Source: Peptostreptococcaceae bacterium
Lineage (GTDB): Bacteria; Bacillota; Clostridia; Peptostreptococcales; Peptostreptococcaceae
Direction of reading: 5' to 3'
DNA length: 64,000 nt
NCBI GenBank assembly: GCA_025210335.1
Contig: JAOARY010000050.1
Location: 1-64,000 of the forward strand
Part shown: piece after piece, positions 32,757-42,920 of the stretch
Layout: each line of letters begins with the position of its first letter
How positions within the stretch are numbered: the first letter of the stretch is position 1
The notes under the pieces: generated by a model
What the model was told of the DNA's origin: nothing
Database searches by the model: none
What the model saw: the letters and a program-made list of their open reading frames with translations, nothing else
Translations under genes and position numbers: made by a program

Positions 32757-32781
32757 TAAGTTGTCAAATAAATAACTCAAT

Positions 32782-32890
32782 ATCCTTCAGGGCAGGGTGT
32801 GATTCCCTACCGGTGGTTTAAGTCCACGAGCGAAAGCTGAACTTGTGTGATTCCAGTACCGACAGTATAGTCTGGATGTAAGAAGGTAAT
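32782..32890 (+). promoter_or_regulatory. FMN riboswitch (RFN element)
   Basis: All hallmark segments are present in order: CTTCAGGGCAGGGTG, GATTCCCTACCGG, GTCCACGAGCGAAAGC, GATTCCAGTACCGACAG and TCTGGATG, closing with GAAGG that pairs to CCTTC. Binding of FMN should switch off ribD-ribE-ribBA-ribH. Confidence 0.97.
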
Positions 32891-32912
32891 ATCGTAATTT
32901 GTGATGTTTTTT

Positions 32913-34258: not shown

Positions 34259-34921
34259 TTGTTTACTGGAATTATTGAAGAGATTGGAATAGTAAAAAAA
34301 ATAAAAAAATCAAATAATGGGTTAAGAATTCATATAGAGTGTAAAGACTTATTAAATGATTGTAATTTAGGAGATAGTATAGCTGTAAATGGAGTGTGTC
34401 TTACAGTTGACAAAAAAGAAAAAAATATTTTTGTTGCAGATATTATGAATGAAAGTTTAAAAGCAAGTAATTTGAAATTTTTAAATACAGGTTACAAAGT
34501 TAATTTGGAAAGAGCGATGAGTTTAAATAAAAGACTTGGAGGACATATTGTAACTGGTCATGTAGATAAAATGGCCAAATTAGAATCTATAAATGATGAT
34601 GGATTATCTATTGAATTAAAAATATCATATGAAAATAAAAACTATAAAAAGTATTTGATAAAAAAAGGGTCAATTACTTTAAATGGAGTAAGTTTAACTG
34701 TGAATAATGTAAACGAAGGGAATTTTACAGTTAATATAATTCCTCATACATTTAATAATACGAATTTATCTAATTTATCTAAAGGAGATTTTTTGAACTT
34801 AGAATTTGATGTTTTAGCTAAATATATAGAAAATTTAATTGATTTTAGTAATAATGGAAATTTAAAAGAAGATAAAAAAGGAATAGATAAAAATTTTTTG
34901 CTTACAAATGGCTTTTTTTAA
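34259..34921 (+). CDS. ribE: riboflavin synthase alpha chain
   Basis: The enzyme dismutates two 6,7-dimethyl-8-ribityllumazines to riboflavin. The 220-residue protein begins with the family signature MFTGIIEEIG and has two lumazine-binding repeats, each with a VNGVCLTV/LNGVSLTV type motif (near residues 41 and 142). GGHIVTGHVD is near 98. The TTG start is inferred, since MFTG is the universal N-terminus. It follows ribD by 66 bases. Confidence 0.96.
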   Translation: MFTGIIEEIGIVKKIKKSNNGLRIHIECKDLLNDCNLGDSIAVNGVCLTVDKKEKNIFVADIMNESLKASNLKFLNTGYKVNLERAMSLNKRLGGHIVTGHVDKMAKLESINDDGLSIELKISYENKNYKKYLIKKGSITLNGVSLTVNNVNEGNFTVNIIPHTFNNTNLSNLSKGDFLNLEFDVLAKYIENLIDFSNNGNLKEDKKGIDKNFLLTNGFF

Positions 34922-34951
34922 TAAAAATAAATTATAATAGGAGGATTTAAT

Positions 34952-36163
34952 ATGTTTTGTAAAATTGAAGATGCAATAAAAGATTTAAAAGAAGGAAAAA
35001 TAATAATAATAACAGATGATGATGATAGAGAAAATGAAGGAGATTTTGTAATACCATCAGAAATTTGTGATTATAAGCATGTAGATTTTATGATATCCAA
35101 AGGTAAAGGGCTATTATGTGTAAGTGTAGATGAAGATTTGGCAAAAAAATTGGATTTAAATTATATGAATGATAATAATACAGATCCAAACAAAACTGCA
35201 TTTACTATTTCAATTGATCATAAAGATAGTGGTACTGGAATAAGTGCAATTTCAAGAGCATTAACAATAAATGAAATGGTAAAAGAAAATTCAAAACCAA
35301 ATGACTTTACAAGACCTGGACATGTATTTCCTTTAATAGCTAAGAAGTATGGAGTATTAAAAAGAAATGGTCATACAGAGGCTTCTTTAGATATAGCAAA
35401 ACTTGCAGGATTTAAACCATCAGCAGTAATTTGTGAAATTTTAAGTGATAGTGGATATTCTGCAACAAGAGAAGAAATTTTTGATATTGCAAAAGAATAT
35501 GAATTAAAAATAATAAGTATAAAAGATTTAATAGAGTATAAAAAATTGAATTACGAATATTTAGACTATACTAATATAATAGATTTTAAAACTAAATATG
35601 GTGATTTCAAAGCATTTAGTGTAAAAGATGAAATTTCAAAAGATGAACATTTTGTGATTTTTAAAAATGAATTTGATAACGATATTTCAAAAAATGAAAA
35701 TTTAGAATTTGATCTTAGAATACATTCAGAGTGCTTGACTGGAGATGTCTTTTTTTCAAAAAGATGTGATTGTAAAAGTCAATTAGAAAAATCTCTTATA
35801 CATATATCAAAGCAAAAAAATGGAGCTTTGATTTATCTAAGACAAGAAGGTAGAGGGATTGGTCTTTTTAACAAAATAAAAGCATATGATTTACAAGAAA
35901 AAGGGTTTGATACAGTACAAGCCAATATAGAATTAGGATTTAAAGAAGAACAAAGAGAATTTTTTGTGGCTGCAAATATTTTAAAAAAATTAAATATAAA
36001 TAAAGTCAATTTGCTTACTAACAATCCTTTAAAAATAAATGAATTAAAAAAATGGAATGTTGATGTTATAAAAAGAATACCTATTTTGGGTGAAATAAAT
36101 GATATTAATAAATTTTATATAGATACAAAAGTTAAGAAGATGAAACATTGTATTGAAATTTAA
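34952..36163 (+). CDS. ribBA: bifunctional DHBP synthase/GTP cyclohydrolase II
   Basis: The N-terminal half (about 1-205) makes 3,4-dihydroxy-2-butanone 4-phosphate from ribulose 5-phosphate and shows DDDDRENEGDFV near residue 24. The C-terminal half opens the GTP ring, with zinc cysteines in RIHSECLTGDVFFSKRCDC near 250-270 and RQEGRGIGL near 295. The 403-residue fusion is typical of Firmicutes. ATG follows TAGGAGG. Confidence 0.97.
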   Translation: MFCKIEDAIKDLKEGKIIIITDDDDRENEGDFVIPSEICDYKHVDFMISKGKGLLCVSVDEDLAKKLDLNYMNDNNTDPNKTAFTISIDHKDSGTGISAISRALTINEMVKENSKPNDFTRPGHVFPLIAKKYGVLKRNGHTEASLDIAKLAGFKPSAVICEILSDSGYSATREEIFDIAKEYELKIISIKDLIEYKKLNYEYLDYTNIIDFKTKYGDFKAFSVKDEISKDEHFVIFKNEFDNDISKNENLEFDLRIHSECLTGDVFFSKRCDCKSQLEKSLIHISKQKNGALIYLRQEGRGIGLFNKIKAYDLQEKGFDTVQANIELGFKEEQREFFVAANILKKLNINKVNLLTNNPLKINELKKWNVDVIKRIPILGEINDINKFYIDTKVKKMKHCIEI

Positions 36164-36261
36164 ATTTCTCATAAAAAATGTAGATTATCATTTGATGGTT
36201 ATTAGATAAAAAGAAGAAATTTATAAAAAGTATATATTAAAAAATAGATGGAGGTTTTATT

Positions 36262-36726
36262 ATGAAAATTTATGAAGGTAATTTAGTAAAAACAGATAAA
36301 AAAGTAGGGATAATCGTTTCAAGATTTAATGAATTTATAACAAGAAAATTATTGGAAGGTGCAATTGATTGTTTAAAAAGACATGAAATAAAAGAAGAAA
36401 ATATAGATATATTTTATGTTCCAGGTGCTTTTGAAATTCCACTTATAGCAAAAAAGTTAACTAAAAAATATGATGGAATAATAGCTATTGGCGCAGTGAT
36501 AAAAGGAGATACAGATCATTATGATTATGTTTGTGCTGAAGTTACAAAGGGAGTAGCATCAGTATCATTAGAATCACAAAAACCTGTTATGTTTAGTGTT
36601 TTAACAGTAGATAGTATAGAACAAGCAATAGAAAGAGCTGGTACTAAAAAAGGTAATAAAGGCTTTGAATGTGCTCTAAGTTTGATTGAAATATTTAATT
36701 TAACAGATAAAATTGATAGGATTTAA
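36262..36726 (+). CDS. ribH: 6,7-dimethyl-8-ribityllumazine synthase
   Basis: RibH condenses the RibBA and RibD products and forms icosahedral shells. The 154-residue protein has [12 protein letters not shown] near residue 16, [14 protein letters not shown] near 52, [17 protein letters not shown] near 75 (catalytic His) and the terminal [18 protein letters not shown] follows GGAGG. It is the last gene of the rib operon; 98 bases separate it from ribBA. Confidence 0.97.
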
Positions 36727-36896: not shown

Positions 36897-37259
36897 ATGG
36901 AAAATAATTTAAGAGTAGGTCAAATTATTGAAGGAACAGTAACAGGTATAAAACCTTTTGGTGCGTTTGTGAAATTAGATGAAAAAACTCAAGGACTTGT
37001 ACATATTTCACAAGTTACTCATGGATTTTTAAAGGATATAAATGAGGTTCTTTCAGTAGGAGATTTAGTAAAAGTTAAGATACTATCTATAGATGACAAG
37101 ACAAAAAAAGTATCATTATCAATCAAAGAGGCTAAGGAAAAGGAAAGACCAGCTAAGCCTGCTAAGGATAAAGTTCAGAAATTAGATGATATGATGAAGA
37201 ACTGGTTAAAAGAATCTAATGATAGACAAGCTGTTTTAAATAAAAGAAATACAAAATAA
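36897..37259 (+). CDS. S1 RNA-binding domain protein (YugI/GSP13-like)
   Basis: The 120-residue protein has one S1 domain (about residues 5-75) with GQIIEGTVTGIKPFGAFVKL and TQGLVHISQV, followed by a basic tail rich in lysine. Small S1 proteins of this type bind RNA or ribosomes, and the B. subtilis general stress protein 13 is the closest known model. Two ATGs in tandem (36894 and 36897) follow AGGAG; the second has the better seven-base spacing. It lies between the rib operon and the lysine riboswitch. Confidence 0.88.
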   Translation: MENNLRVGQIIEGTVTGIKPFGAFVKLDEKTQGLVHISQVTHGFLKDINEVLSVGDLVKVKILSIDDKTKKVSLSIKEAKEKERPAKPAKDKVQKLDDMMKNWLKESNDRQAVLNKRNTK

Positions 37260-37271
37260 TAAAAATATTTA

Positions 37272-37300
37272 TTGACAAATTAAAAATATTTTTATATTAT
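37272..37300 (+). promoter_or_regulatory. promoter of the lysine-riboswitch gene
   Basis: TTGACA (37272-37277) and TATTAT (37295-37300), spaced 17 bases, about 30 bases before the aptamer. Confidence 0.8.
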
Positions 37301-37330
37301 TAAACTTGTAATTGAAAAGTGAATACCGTT

Positions 37331-37501
37331 TTGGTAGTAGAGGTGCGAAACTAAAGAGTATCTATTGGGAGTCTAAGCGATTAAGATCAATAGAAAAAGG
37401 GAGTTTTGCCGAAGTTTTTGACTGATAGCTTTGAGGTTAATCACTGGGATGATAGATAATATCTATTATACTGTCACATTTAATATGTGGAGGGCTATTA
37501 T
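37331..37501 (+). promoter_or_regulatory. lysine riboswitch (L box)
   Basis: Conserved segments are in order: TAGTAGAGGTGCG, AAGAGTA, GGGAGTTTTGCCGAAG, GAGGTTAATCACTGGGAT, ACTGTCACA and TGTGGAGGGCTATTA, which closes P1. The downstream gene is a NhaC-type transporter, a known lysine-regulated family. Confidence 0.96.
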
Positions 37502-37551
37502 TCAAATGTTTTTATTTGCAGGAATCCTAGGTAATATTCTGTAAATTTGAA

Positions 37552-37578
37552 CCTTGAGTAATTACTCAAGGTTTTTTG
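37552..37578 (+). terminator. terminator in the lysine leader
   Basis: CCTTGAGTA pairs perfectly with TACTCAAGG around AT, followed by TTTTTTG. It is placed 50 bases after the aptamer. Confidence 0.88.
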
Positions 37579-37587
37579 ATTTGATAG

Positions 37588-37613
37588 TCCTCCTTTGATA
37601 AAACAAAGGAGGA
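37588..37613 (+). promoter_or_regulatory. SD-sequestering hairpin of the lysine leader
   Basis: TCCTCCTTTG (37588-37597) pairs perfectly with CAAAGGAGGA (37604-37613) around ATAAAA, burying the whole SD AAAGGAGG, and seven T and the ATG follow. The anti-SD strand is also complementary to the aptamer: ATAGTCCTCC (37584-37593) pairs with GGAGGGCTAT (37489-37498) in ten pairs, one of them G.U. Confidence 0.8.
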
Positions 37614-37620
37614 TTTTTTT

Positions 37621-39360
37621 ATGAGAAAAAGAAGTATTTTATTTAGTTTAATTTTGGTGTTATTATTTTCATTTGACATTTCTTTTGCAAATGACTTAGA
37701 GATGGTAGAAAAATATAAATTTCTGACATTATTACCACCAATAGTTGCAATTATATTAGCTTTTATAACAAAAAATGTTGTATTTTCATTATTTGTAGGT
37801 GTATTATCAGGAACTTTTTTAGTAAGATTTTATAGTGAGAATTTCTTTATGGCATTTGTAAATGGATTTTTAGATGTTATATTAAATACATTAAACTCAC
37901 TTGCTGATAAGTGGAATGCTGGAATAATACTTCAGTGTTTAGCTATTGGAGGTTTGATAGCTCTTATTTCAAAGATGGGTGGAGCTTTAGCAGTTGCAAA
38001 TGCACTTTCTAAAAAAGCAAAAACATTAAGAAGTACACAACTTATAACTTGGGTTTTGGGACTATTTGTATTTTTTGACGATTATGCAAATTCACTAATT
38101 GTAGGACCTATAATGAGACCTATTAGTGATAAAATGAAATTATCAAGAGAAAAACTAGCTTTTATTGTAGATGGAACAGCAGCACCTATTGCTGGTATTG
38201 CTATGGTTTCTACATGGGTTGGATATGAAGTTGGACTTATAAAAGATGCATATTCATCAATTGGGATGGAAGTAAATTCTTATTCGATATTCTTAGAATC
38301 AATTCCATTTAGATTTTATAATATTTTAGTTTTAGCATTCATTGTAATTAGTGCAATAACATTAAGAGAATTTGGACCTATGTTAAAAAGTCAAAGAAGA
38401 GCATATTTTACAGGTGAAGTTAAGCCAAATAATAAGAATATTCAGATGAATGAAGAAAACAATTTAAAGCCAAAAGAGGGAATTAAACTTAGAGTTTGCA
38501 ATGCTTTAGTACCTATAGCTGTTCTTATAATTACCTCTTTTATAGGATTTTATTTAAATGGATATTCAGCACTTTTAGAAAATGTAGATGTAATTACAAA
38601 AATTCAAGAATCACCATTATCTTTTTATGCTATAAGGGAAACTTTTGGGGCTTCAGATGCGAGTATTGTATTATTTCAATCAGCTATAATAGCAGCTTTA
38701 GTTGCTCTTATTATGGGAATTAGTCAAAAGATATTTACTTTATCTGAAGGTATTGAAATATTTGTAGAAGGTATGAAAGAACTAGTTATAACTGGTGTAA
38801 TTCTTTTGCTTGCATGGTCTTTAAGTTCAGTTATAAAAGAACTTGGAACAGCTAAGTTTTTAGTGTCGATTCTTTCTAGTAAGATACCTGCATTTTTACT
38901 TCCTAGTATAATATTTATACTAGCTTCAATAATTTCATTTGCAACAGGAACAGCATATGGAACTATGGGTATACTTATGCCACTTGCAATACCACTTGCT
39001 AATTCAATTGGTAGTGCTAATACTAATTTTATATTAGCAGGAGCAGGAGCTGTTCTTGCAGGAGCTATATTTGGAGATCATTGTTCGCCTATATCCGATA
39101 CGACAATACTTTCTTCTATGGGAACATCTTGTGATCATATTGAACACACTAAAACACAGATGGTTTATGCTGTTAGTATTGCTTTAGTGTCTGTAGTATT
39201 TGGTTATATTCCAATTGGATTAGGCATGAATATATTTATGGTACTGCCTATATCAATTATTGCAATATATGGACTTTTAAGAATAGTTGGTTCGAGAATA
39301 GATGATGTATCAAAAGAGGAATTAAATAATATTCAAAATGAGTATAAGAAAGCTGTTTAA
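37621..39360 (+). CDS. NhaC family antiporter, probable lysine transporter (LysW type)
   Basis: The 579-residue protein has about twelve membrane segments and the Na+/H+ antiporter NhaC domain, with FFDDYANSLIVGPIMRP near residue 153 and AIFGDHCSPISDTTILSS near 480. An N-terminal signal-peptide-like segment (about residues 3-23, ending FA-ND) precedes the first core helix. NhaC-type members under a lysine riboswitch have been proposed as lysine transporters (LysW). The riboswitch here supports that, but substrate and direction are not shown by the sequence. ATG follows AAAGGAGG. Confidence 0.88.
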   Translation: MRKRSILFSLILVLLFSFDISFANDLEMVEKYKFLTLLPPIVAIILAFITKNVVFSLFVGVLSGTFLVRFYSENFFMAFVNGFLDVILNTLNSLADKWNAGIILQCLAIGGLIALISKMGGALAVANALSKKAKTLRSTQLITWVLGLFVFFDDYANSLIVGPIMRPISDKMKLSREKLAFIVDGTAAPIAGIAMVSTWVGYEVGLIKDAYSSIGMEVNSYSIFLESIPFRFYNILVLAFIVISAITLREFGPMLKSQRRAYFTGEVKPNNKNIQMNEENNLKPKEGIKLRVCNALVPIAVLIITSFIGFYLNGYSALLENVDVITKIQESPLSFYAIRETFGASDASIVLFQSAIIAALVALIMGISQKIFTLSEGIEIFVEGMKELVITGVILLLAWSLSSVIKELGTAKFLVSILSSKIPAFLLPSIIFILASIISFATGTAYGTMGILMPLAIPLANSIGSANTNFILAGAGAVLAGAIFGDHCSPISDTTILSSMGTSCDHIEHTKTQMVYAVSIALVSVVFGYIPIGLGMNIFMVLPISIIAIYGLLRIVGSRIDDVSKEELNNIQNEYKKAV

Positions 39361-39485: not shown

Positions 39486-39507
39486 TTACAATAAATAATT
39501 TAATAAA

Positions 39508-39741
39508 TAATAGCTTTGAGTAGGACAGTAGTTATATTAAAATTTCTTTAGAGAGATGATTGTTAGCTGAAAAATCGTCGTCATTTTATATAGTGAAAAT
39601 CACCTATGAGCTGGTTATCTGAAATAAAGTAAGATAGTTCCCTTTATTGGGTTAAAATTTTTCAAGTGATAGATTTATAATCTATAATTTGGGTGGTACC
39701 GCGTAAAAATACGTCCCAGAGCATTGCTCTGGGATTTTTTA
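39508..39741 (+). promoter_or_regulatory. isoleucine T-box leader with terminator
   Basis: The invariant T-box sequence GGGTGGTACCGCG starts at 39691. GAGTAGGACAGTAG opens stem I, and the specifier region AGTGAAAATCACC gives codon ATC at 39599-39601, read by tRNA-Ile. The terminator TCCCAGAGC/GCTCTGGGA plus T6 (39714-39741) follows directly. Uncharged tRNA-Ile should stabilise the antiterminator and allow ileS expression. Confidence 0.95.
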
Positions 39742-39812: not shown

Positions 39813-42800
39813 ATGGAAAAGTTTAAAACTTTAGACAATTCAGTCAAGACTAGCGAAGAAAAAGTTATGAAATATTGGGAAGAGATAGATTTATTAAAAA
39901 AATCAGTTGAAGAAAGAGAAGGTAAAGAACCTTATATATTTTATGAAGGACCACCTACTGCAAATGGAAACCCAGGAATACACCATGTTATAGCAAGAAC
40001 ATTAAAGGATTCTATATGTAGATTTAAAACTATGAAGGGTTATCAAGTAAAAAGAAAAGCAGGATGGGATACTCATGGTTTACCTGTTGAAATACAAGTT
40101 GAAAAGCAACTTGGTTTATCTTCAAAGCCTGAAATAGAAAAGTATGGAATTGCAGAATTTAATGAAAAATGTAGAGAGTCTGTTTTCCAATATGAAAAAC
40201 AATGGAGAGATATGACTGAAAGAATGGCATATTTAGTAGATTTAGATGATCCATATATAACTTTAGATAATAATTATATTGAAAGTGTGTGGTGGATATT
40301 AGATAAATTCCAAAAAGAAGGATATATATATGAAGGTCATAAGATACTTCCTTATTGTTCAAGATGTGGAACTGGATTAGCTTCACATGAAGTTGCACAA
40401 GGATATAAAGAAATAAAATCAGAAACTGTAATTGCAAAATTTAAAAAAGTTGATGAAGATGCATATTTCTTAGCTTGGACAACTACACCTTGGACACTAC
40501 CTTCAAATGTATGTTTAACAGTGAATCCTAATGAAACATATATAAAAGCTAAGCATGAAGATGGTAATACTTATTATATGGAAAAGAACTTAGCTAACTC
40601 TGTTATGGGTGAAGATAAGTATGAGATATTAGAAGAAATGAAAGGTAAAGATTTAGAATATATGGAATATGAACAACTTATGCCTTTTGTTAAAGCTGAT
40701 AAAAAAGCATTTTTTGTAACTTGTGCAGATTATGTAACTACAGATGATGGTACAGGTATAGTTCATTCAGCTCCTGCATTTGGAGAAGATGATTATCAAA
40801 CAGGAAGAAAATACGAACTTCCAGTATTAAAACCTGTTGGAGACGATGGTAAATTTACAATGACACCTTGGGAAGGTAGATTTGTTATGGATGCAGATAC
40901 AGATATAGTTATATGGTTAAAAGAACAAAATAAATTATTTAAAAAGCAAAAAATGCCTCACAATTATCCACATTGTTGGAGATGTGACACACCACTTTTA
41001 TACTATGCTAGACCAAGTTGGTATATAGAAATAACAAAATTAAAAGATAAATTAATAGAAAATAATAACTCAGTAGAATGGTATCCTGACTATGTTGGAG
41101 AAAAGAGATTTGGTAACTGGTTAGAAAATCTAAATGATTGGGCAATATCAAGAAGTAGATATTGGGGAACACCATTTAATATTTGGAAATGTGAATGTGG
41201 ACATAAAGATAGTGTTGGATCGAAACAAGAACTTGCAAATAGAGCGATTGAAGATGTTGATCCAAATACTGTAGAACTTCATAGACCTCATGTTGATAAT
41301 ATTCATTTAAAATGTGATAAGTGTGGCGGAACAATGACAAGAATTGACGATGTTATAGATGTTTGGTTTGATTCAGGTGCTATGCCATTTGCTCAAAGAC
41401 ATTATCCATTTGAAAATAAAGATAATTTCTTTGATGATTTCTTCCCAGCTGACTTTATCTGTGAAGGTATAGATCAAACTAGAGGATGGTTCTATTCTTT
41501 ACTTGCAATATCAACATTTGTAACAGGAAAATCACCATATAAGAGAGTTTTAGTTAATGATCTTATATTAGATAAAAATGGAAAGAAAATGTCTAAGTCA
41601 AAAGGAAATACAGTTAGTCCATTTAAATTATTTGATCAATATGGAGCAGATGCTCTTAGATGGTATTTACTTTATGTATCTCCAGCTTGGACACCAACTA
41701 GATTTGATGAAGATGGACTTAAAGAAGTGCTAAGCAAATTCTTTGGAACTTATAAGAACGTATATAGTTTCTTTACTCTTTATGCAAATACAGATAATAT
41801 AGATCCAAAAGAGTTCTATGTTGAAGTTAAAGATAGACCAGAGCTTGATAGATGGGTTATATCTAAATTCAATAATTTAGCGAAGACTGTAAATGAAGAG
41901 ATAGAAATATTTGATTTAACAAAGGCTGTTAGAAAGATACAAAACTTTGTTGATTCTGAATTATCAAACTGGTATATAAGACGTTCAAGAAGAAGATTCT
42001 GGGAACCAACTTTAACAGAAGATAAAAAAGCTGTTTATAATACTACATTTGAAATATTAGAAGGTATTGCAAGACTTATAGCTCCATTTGCACCATTTAT
42101 AGCAGAAGAAATATATACTAATTTAACTGGTAATCAAACAGTTCATACTGCTTATTATCCAGAGTGCAATGAAGATTATATAGATAATAAATTAGAAGAA
42201 AAAATGGACTTAGTTAAAAATCTTGTTACTTTAGGAAGAGCATCAAGAGAAAAGGTTAGAATAAAAGTTAGACAACCACTTTCTAAGGTTATGATAGATG
42301 GAAAATATGAAGATTTAATATCTGATGTTGTACCACTTATTAAAGAAGAATTAAATGTTAAGGAAGTTGTATTTGCTAAAGATTTAGGTGAATTTATGAA
42401 CTTTAGCTTAAAGCCAAACTTCAAGGTATTAGGAGCTGTACTTGGTTCTAAGATAAAAACTTTTGCAAAAGAATTATCTTCTTTAGATGCTTCAAAAGCT
42501 GTTCCTTCTTTAGAGTCAGGAAATACTATAAAAGTAGATTTAGAAGGCGAAGAATTTGAATTTGATAAAGAAAAAGTTCTTATAAACATCCAAGCTAAAG
42601 AAGGTTTTGATGTTGGAATGGAAAATAATCTATTTGTTATATTAGATACTTCTTTAAATGAGGAACTTGTAAATGAAGGATATGCAAGAGAGTTTATTTC
42701 GAAAGTTCAACAACTTAGAAAAGCAAATGATTTTGAAATGATGGATAGAATAAAAATAAGCTATGATTCTAATGATGATATAGCAAATGCTGTAAATATC

Positions 42801-42920
42801 CATAATGAATATATAAAATCAGAAACATTAGCTGATGAAATAGTAAAAGTATCTGATGAGACATTAGAAAAGCATAACCTAAATGGACATGATACTGGAA
42901 TGAAAGTTGAAAAATTATAA
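39813..42920 (+). CDS. ileS: isoleucyl-tRNA synthetase, long form
   Basis: The 1035-residue class I synthetase charges tRNA-Ile. The HIGH-type motif is NPGIHHVIARTLKD near residue 53 and KMSKS is at about 592. Zinc-type cysteine pairs are seen in CSRCGT, CWRCDTP and CDKCGG. The length and motif style match the eukaryote-like IleS group (IleS2), members of which are often insensitive to mupirocin. ATG follows GAGGAGG by about ten bases. It is controlled by the T-box upstream. Confidence 0.97.
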   Translation: MEKFKTLDNSVKTSEEKVMKYWEEIDLLKKSVEEREGKEPYIFYEGPPTANGNPGIHHVIARTLKDSICRFKTMKGYQVKRKAGWDTHGLPVEIQVEKQLGLSSKPEIEKYGIAEFNEKCRESVFQYEKQWRDMTERMAYLVDLDDPYITLDNNYIESVWWILDKFQKEGYIYEGHKILPYCSRCGTGLASHEVAQGYKEIKSETVIAKFKKVDEDAYFLAWTTTPWTLPSNVCLTVNPNETYIKAKHEDGNTYYMEKNLANSVMGEDKYEILEEMKGKDLEYMEYEQLMPFVKADKKAFFVTCADYVTTDDGTGIVHSAPAFGEDDYQTGRKYELPVLKPVGDDGKFTMTPWEGRFVMDADTDIVIWLKEQNKLFKKQKMPHNYPHCWRCDTPLLYYARPSWYIEITKLKDKLIENNNSVEWYPDYVGEKRFGNWLENLNDWAISRSRYWGTPFNIWKCECGHKDSVGSKQELANRAIEDVDPNTVELHRPHVDNIHLKCDKCGGTMTRIDDVIDVWFDSGAMPFAQRHYPFENKDNFFDDFFPADFICEGIDQTRGWFYSLLAISTFVTGKSPYKRVLVNDLILDKNGKKMSKSKGNTVSPFKLFDQYGADALRWYLLYVSPAWTPTRFDEDGLKEVLSKFFGTYKNVYSFFTLYANTDNIDPKEFYVEVKDRPELDRWVISKFNNLAKTVNEEIEIFDLTKAVRKIQNFVDSELSNWYIRRSRRRFWEPTLTEDKKAVYNTTFEILEGIARLIAPFAPFIAEEIYTNLTGNQTVHTAYYPECNEDYIDNKLEEKMDLVKNLVTLGRASREKVRIKVRQPLSKVMIDGKYEDLISDVVPLIKEELNVKEVVFAKDLGEFMNFSLKPNFKVLGAVLGSKIKTFAKELSSLDASKAVPSLESGNTIKVDLEGEEFEFDKEKVLINIQAKEGFDVGMENNLFVILDTSLNEELVNEGYAREFISKVQQLRKANDFEMMDRIKISYDSNDDIANAVNIHNEYIKSETLADEIVKVSDETLEKHNLNGHDTGMKVEKL

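Follow-up and report, generated by a model that had tools for sequence, protein, structure and literature searches.

Riboswitches of the Firmicutes are mostly classed as transcriptional (PMC2258182). In the L box of Bacillus subtilis lysC (RF00168), a transcriptional OFF switch, a full aptamer is followed by an antiterminator which contains the 3' strand of aptamer stem P1 and competes with the terminator. A dual platform was described by Barrick and Breaker in 2007, where one hairpin serves for both termination and masking of the Shine-Dalgarno (SD) sequence; this hairpin resembles a terminator and carries the SD in its 3' arm, the criterion being a terminator no more than 10 nt away from the start codon (PMC2258182). 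The lysC riboswitch of Escherichia coli acts on translation initiation and, with RNase E, on mRNA decay as the second layer; an intrinsic terminator is not described in the parts of PMC5584792 drawn on here. The nhaC/lysW genes are named there as a target family of lysine riboswitches, with Clostridium difficile CD1655 nhaC (PMC11477304) and lysW (PMC5584792) as examples; the portions of these two papers used here contain no description of the expression platform. While the one-hairpin dual platform and the nhaC/lysW association are, within these sources, already known, a literature search that covered its sources in part found no description of a lysine riboswitch in which a single strand serves both a separate terminator and an SD hairpin, and an earlier description is possible.

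The leader studied here has the same aptamer and gene family as the C. difficile examples. It is located in a window of 64,000 nucleotides, the whole stretch of DNA that was analysed, from a Peptostreptococcaceae bacterium whose genome contains four lysine riboswitches and whose family also includes Tepidibacter and Romboutsia. The lysine aptamer (L box), which is encoded on the + strand like all other features of the leader and the gene, extends from 37330 to 37505 and matches RF00168 over the full length of the model (positions 1-182) with 111.1 bits and an E value of 9e-29, the gathering score being 30 bits; the aptamer had already been recognized in a sequence-only reading of the region. 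About 30 nt upstream of it lies a candidate promoter, TTGACA-17-TATTAT (37272-37300), which agrees with the consensus at 11/12 positions and is named on that match alone. Directly downstream, an nhaC-type antiporter gene begins at 37621 and ends at 39360 (579 aa, LysW-like; PF03553, E 5.9e-55), the product of which is probably a lysine or Na+/H+ transporter. Judged from covariance-model match and gene context, the element is a lysine riboswitch of the regular type with a predicted two-gate platform, that is, a variant of a known design.

Between aptamer and gene, two hairpins are found, and they are the only terminator-like sites in 36900-37900, where shuffles of the region give 0.1. The first, T1 (37549-37580), has a stem of 11 bp at 37549-37574 with about -14 kcal/mol, followed by a T-rich tail; a terminator downstream of the aptamer had been proposed at 37552-37578. 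The second, H2 (37588-37613), has the form TCCTCCTTTG-ATAAAA-CAAAGGAGGA and is the perfect 10-bp hairpin that the same reading had described as burying the SD; the SD, GGAGG, is at 37608-37612 in its 3' arm. H2 ends at 37613 and is followed by seven T (37614-37620) and by the ATG at 37621, which places it, with the ribosome-binding site in the 3' side, within the dual-platform criterion of PMC2258182. The earlier suggestion that H2 could terminate as well is fair as a prediction, and in the window H2 may both mask the SD and terminate. In most nhaC relatives no T-run follows the SD hairpin, which should therefore mask the SD only.

The element that connects aptamer, T1, and H2 is a strand of 17 nt, GGAGGGCTATTATTCAA (37489-37505), which comprises junction J5/1, the P1 3' strand, and a tail. 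This switch strand has three partners, namely the P1 5' strand, the T1 5' arm, and an anti-SD strand. According to the Rfam consensus structure in the alignment, the P1 5' strand (37335-37340) pairs with 37495-37500. The anti-SD strand TGATAGTCCTCC (37582-37593) is complementary to 37489-37500, a pairing designated AAS (12 bp, two G.U, -17.3 kcal/mol), so that the 5' arm of the SD-holding H2 has an alternative, partly automatic partner in the switch strand. The core of this pairing, GGAGGGCTAT (37489-37498) with ATAGTCCTCC (37584-37593), had been noticed before as 10 bp with one G.U; it was confirmed and extends to the 12 bp. Its aptamer side had been assigned to the P1 3' strand, which is correct for CTATTA (37495-37500), but GGAGG belongs to J5/1. 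With its flanks, the AAS duplex has -19.3 kcal/mol compared with a mean of -9.2 (sd 2.0) in 20,000 dinucleotide shuffles of 37506-37620, one of which was as good; its length alone is less striking, helices of at least 12 bp being found in about 1% of the shuffles. The conserved GGAG of the lysine-aptamer junction resembles an SD, and the anti-SD match is therefore partly automatic. Because the GGAG:CTCC match comes for free, the informative part of AAS is the extension into the P1 strand, which in the window alone is marginal (p 0.08).

AAS was also considered as the antiterminator of T1, but its two strands lie on either side of the T1 stem and leave it intact, so that it cannot block termination there; the idea was rejected. 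A different pairing would serve this purpose. The switch-strand segment ATTATTCAA (37497-37505), which adjoins and partly overlaps the AAS segment, forms 9 bp with TTGAGTAAT (37554-37562) in the T1 5' arm (antiterminator AT1; window shuffle test, p 0.018), and AT1, taken from the P1 3' strand, and T1 are mutually exclusive. The two antiterminator strands are separated by a hairpin at 37514-37546, in which 37514-37523 pair with 37537-37546. Besides this shuffle test, nascent-RNA folds and relatives speak for AT1.

The aptamer, the hairpins, and the complementarities recur in related leaders, the two platform pairings in nhaC leaders from other Clostridia. Among 80 contigs with an NhaC-type homologue, in which aptamers were located by an nhmmer model built on oriented sequences, about 70 have a lysine aptamer directly upstream of the nhaC-type gene; a wider genome search gained few further leaders. 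A terminator call that looked wrong or ambiguous led to the omission of L036, L062, and L081 from the pairing tests. A T1-like hairpin is present in nearly all nhaC leaders scored, and the AT1-type pairing is better than in shuffles at p<0.05 in 43/66, counts whose significance is overstated because the leaders are related and not independent. Own partners reach a mean of -9.0 kcal/mol compared with -6.5 for swapped ones, with 0/5000 permutations as good. Compensatory changes are found at 12/14 switch-strand columns, examples being ATTATTCG:CGAATAAT in L018 and ATTTAAGG:CCTTGAGT in L045; in a MAFFT alignment of the 15 close leaders, the AT1 pairing is clearly above slid controls with hardly any compensatory change. 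From these comparisons the antiterminator pairing is well supported in relatives, and compensatory changes support it better than they support the anti-SD pairing.

A short motif, TTCAC, was observed after T1 in 29/69 nhaC leaders, usually 25-45 nt upstream of the start codon, where shuffling predicts 2.8; between aptamer and T1 there are 0 cases, and the window does not have the motif. Leaders with TTCAC include L006, L009, L015, L021, L040, and L083. Possible partners are GTGA(A/G) in the T1 5' arm or in switch strands of the GGTGAG type.

Concerning the anti-SD pairing, at least 17/71 leaders, the window included, combine a significant pairing with an overlapping SD-masking arm. Here, too, the relatedness of the leaders makes the counts overstate significance. 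Leaders with this combination come, among other taxa, from Tepidibacter, several Clostridium species, Caloramator, and Alkaliphilus; L005 escaped the automatic overlap test, but by eye it shows the same. A typical leader has ATGATGGACTCTCC 5-10 nt after T1, which pairs with GGAGAGCTATCAT and whose CTCTCC also pairs with the SD. In about three quarters of the nhaC leaders, C. difficile L083 included, a clear anti-SD pairing that reaches the SD arm is missing. This proportion, together with the near universality of the T1/antiterminator pair in nhaC leaders, is what would be expected of a purely transcriptional riboswitch, in which T1 and its antiterminator regulate while the SD hairpin is constitutive or incidental and owes its match with the switch strand to the SD-like GGAG of the junction. 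The automatic nature of GGAG:CTCC agrees with that as well, and so does the window's own value for the extension (p 0.08). If the match in the relatives were wholly such an artefact, however, the extension into the P1 strand should not be enriched after removal of the automatic GGAG:CTCC, yet it is found at p<=0.05 in 15/62 leaders, 3 being expected; for the relatives' set, the artefact was rejected on this ground, while in the window taken alone it may still apply. The position of the anti-SD strand is also constant, mostly 5-10 nt after T1, and in the divergent leaders L005, L016, and L038 the strand tracks the changes of the switch strand, both strands being altered and still complementary there as in L037. 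Regulation by termination alone is for these reasons held to be unlikely.

The covariation support for the anti-SD pairing comes from the divergent lineages and is the weaker of the two. In the significant subset, own partners have a mean of -15.7 kcal/mol and swapped ones -13.7. In the close subset (MAFFT, 15 leaders), both strands hardly vary, and no anti-SD covariation is gained from the column test; in this alignment the right half of the anti-SD strand of the window, which is without bulge, is off by one base. The conservation of the pairing expected by the sequence-only reading is thus seen overall, in that own partners beat swapped ones, but the close subset is uninformative. In about 90 other leaders, mostly from the family of the host and upstream of several genes, an automatic and rough survey scored the layout of T1 plus anti-SD strand only in Tepidibacter copies of the nhaC leader. 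The leader L081 (2386-2491), from a Caloramator sp. MAG, retains the anti-SD pairing as well as an SD hairpin with seven T, while a clear T1 seems to be lost.

Folding of the growing leader was followed as a series of minimum-energy structures of the nascent RNA. As long as the switch strand is free, the lowest-energy structure contains AT1 when the 3' end is at 37566-37570 and AAS when it is at 37593-37604, with -40.0 kcal/mol once 37593 is out. If that strand is kept in its P1 position, T1 forms when the 3' end reaches 37570 and H2 when it reaches 37613. In the whole T1 segment, even without lysine, T1 (-22.5 kcal/mol) is slightly favoured over the antiterminator (-21.2), and for the full leader the SD-masked (-41.9) and SD-free (-41.3) forms are about equal. 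As the energies of the complete segments are close or slightly in favour of T1 and SD masking, the ON state needs kinetic ordering. Transcriptional riboswitches are commonly regarded as dependent on kinetic order.

The leader probably works as a lysine OFF switch that is gated twice, first at termination and then at translation initiation, by the switch strand 37489-37505. The ligand response, termination, SD masking, and order of events that we infer would be the following. In the absence of lysine, P1 would be open, and the switch-strand tail 37497-37505 would capture the emerging T1 5' arm at 37554-37562; T1 would be delayed by this capture, and polymerase would read through. The strand 37582-37593 would emerge ahead of the SD and pair with the switch strand, leaving the SD at 37608-37612 free for translation of nhaC. 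In the presence of lysine, the aptamer would keep the switch strand in P1 and J5/1, T1 would form, and most transcripts would end there. In transcripts escaping T1, H2 would form, hide the SD, and perhaps terminate again in the T7 tract. The combination of terminator and SD-masking hairpin with the aptamer 3' strand as switch had been proposed before, and fold series and relatives agree with it; the antiterminator of T1 had been missed. That H2 would be the main regulated terminator, with the SD in its 3' arm, the T7 tract, and 37489-37500:37582-37593 as antiterminator, T1 being secondary as in single-hairpin dual platforms, is very unlikely, given that T1 precedes H2, is conserved, and is provided with an antiterminator of its own, and that most nhaC relatives are without a T-run after the SD hairpin, even though H2 was scored as a terminator within the published criterion (PMC2258182) and L003, the lysC leader of this genome, shows a lone hairpin of that type together with a matching switch-strand pairing.

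Compared with the described systems, the window resembles B. subtilis lysC in the full aptamer and in the use of the P1 3' strand in an antiterminator competing with the terminator, and adds to it an SD-masking hairpin after the terminator, for which a neighbouring part of the switch strand would be used. Like the platform of Barrick and Breaker it has an SD-holding, terminator-like hairpin near the start codon (H2), and it differs from that platform by the separate preceding terminator; in most nhaC relatives, the missing T-run sets the SD hairpin further apart. The proposed second gate resembles lysine-dependent SD masking in E. coli lysC, as far as the latter is presented in the consulted text of PMC5584792. 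In the C. difficile leader L083, T1 and an antiterminator were found as in the window, but in contrast to the window the scoring gave no pairing of the switch strand with the SD-masking arm.

Tentatively, the arrangement may even represent a conserved two-gate switch that is widespread in nhaC leaders of Clostridia, a reading that could well hold but is put forward with less confidence than that for the window itself. The 17-nt strand would be passed from terminator antagonist to SD antagonist, and lysine would be sensed once on the nascent RNA and possibly a second time on the completed mRNA. Should this strand control translation as well in many nhaC leaders, these would provide a natural system, open to direct testing, in which a single aptamer acts first on termination and then on initiation, and it could be asked there whether a 'transcriptional' riboswitch still senses once polymerase has passed. 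A possible benefit of two gates is suggested by a paper on a synthetic two-level regulator, the consulted part of which addresses the leak from incomplete repression (PMC5435934).

Further RNA switches were observed in the course of the analysis. The same-genome lysC leader L003 (aptamer 1501-1676 and the following 120 nt) contains a single SD-holding hairpin followed by a T-run, the 5' arm of which pairs with the switch strand GGAGAGCT; there is no separate T1, and the predicted arrangement fits the published dual platform (PMC2258182). In the rough automatic survey of about 90 other leaders, the single-hairpin version was scored in this leader. Tandem lysine aptamers are located upstream of nhaC in Propionigenium maris (L048, 2007-2152 and 2247-2405), and in Metaclostridioides / Clostridioides mangenotii (L033, 7-119; L047, 20-79) a second, partly included lysine aptamer lies about 2.2 kb upstream of the nhaC one. 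In the window, an FMN riboswitch (RF00050, 104.9 bits) at 32779-32891 precedes riboflavin genes including 34259-36726, and a T-box leader (RF00230, 132.2 bits) at 39507-39721 precedes ileS (39813-42920), the nhaC-type transporter gene thus being flanked by two RNA switches, the lysine riboswitch and the T-box.
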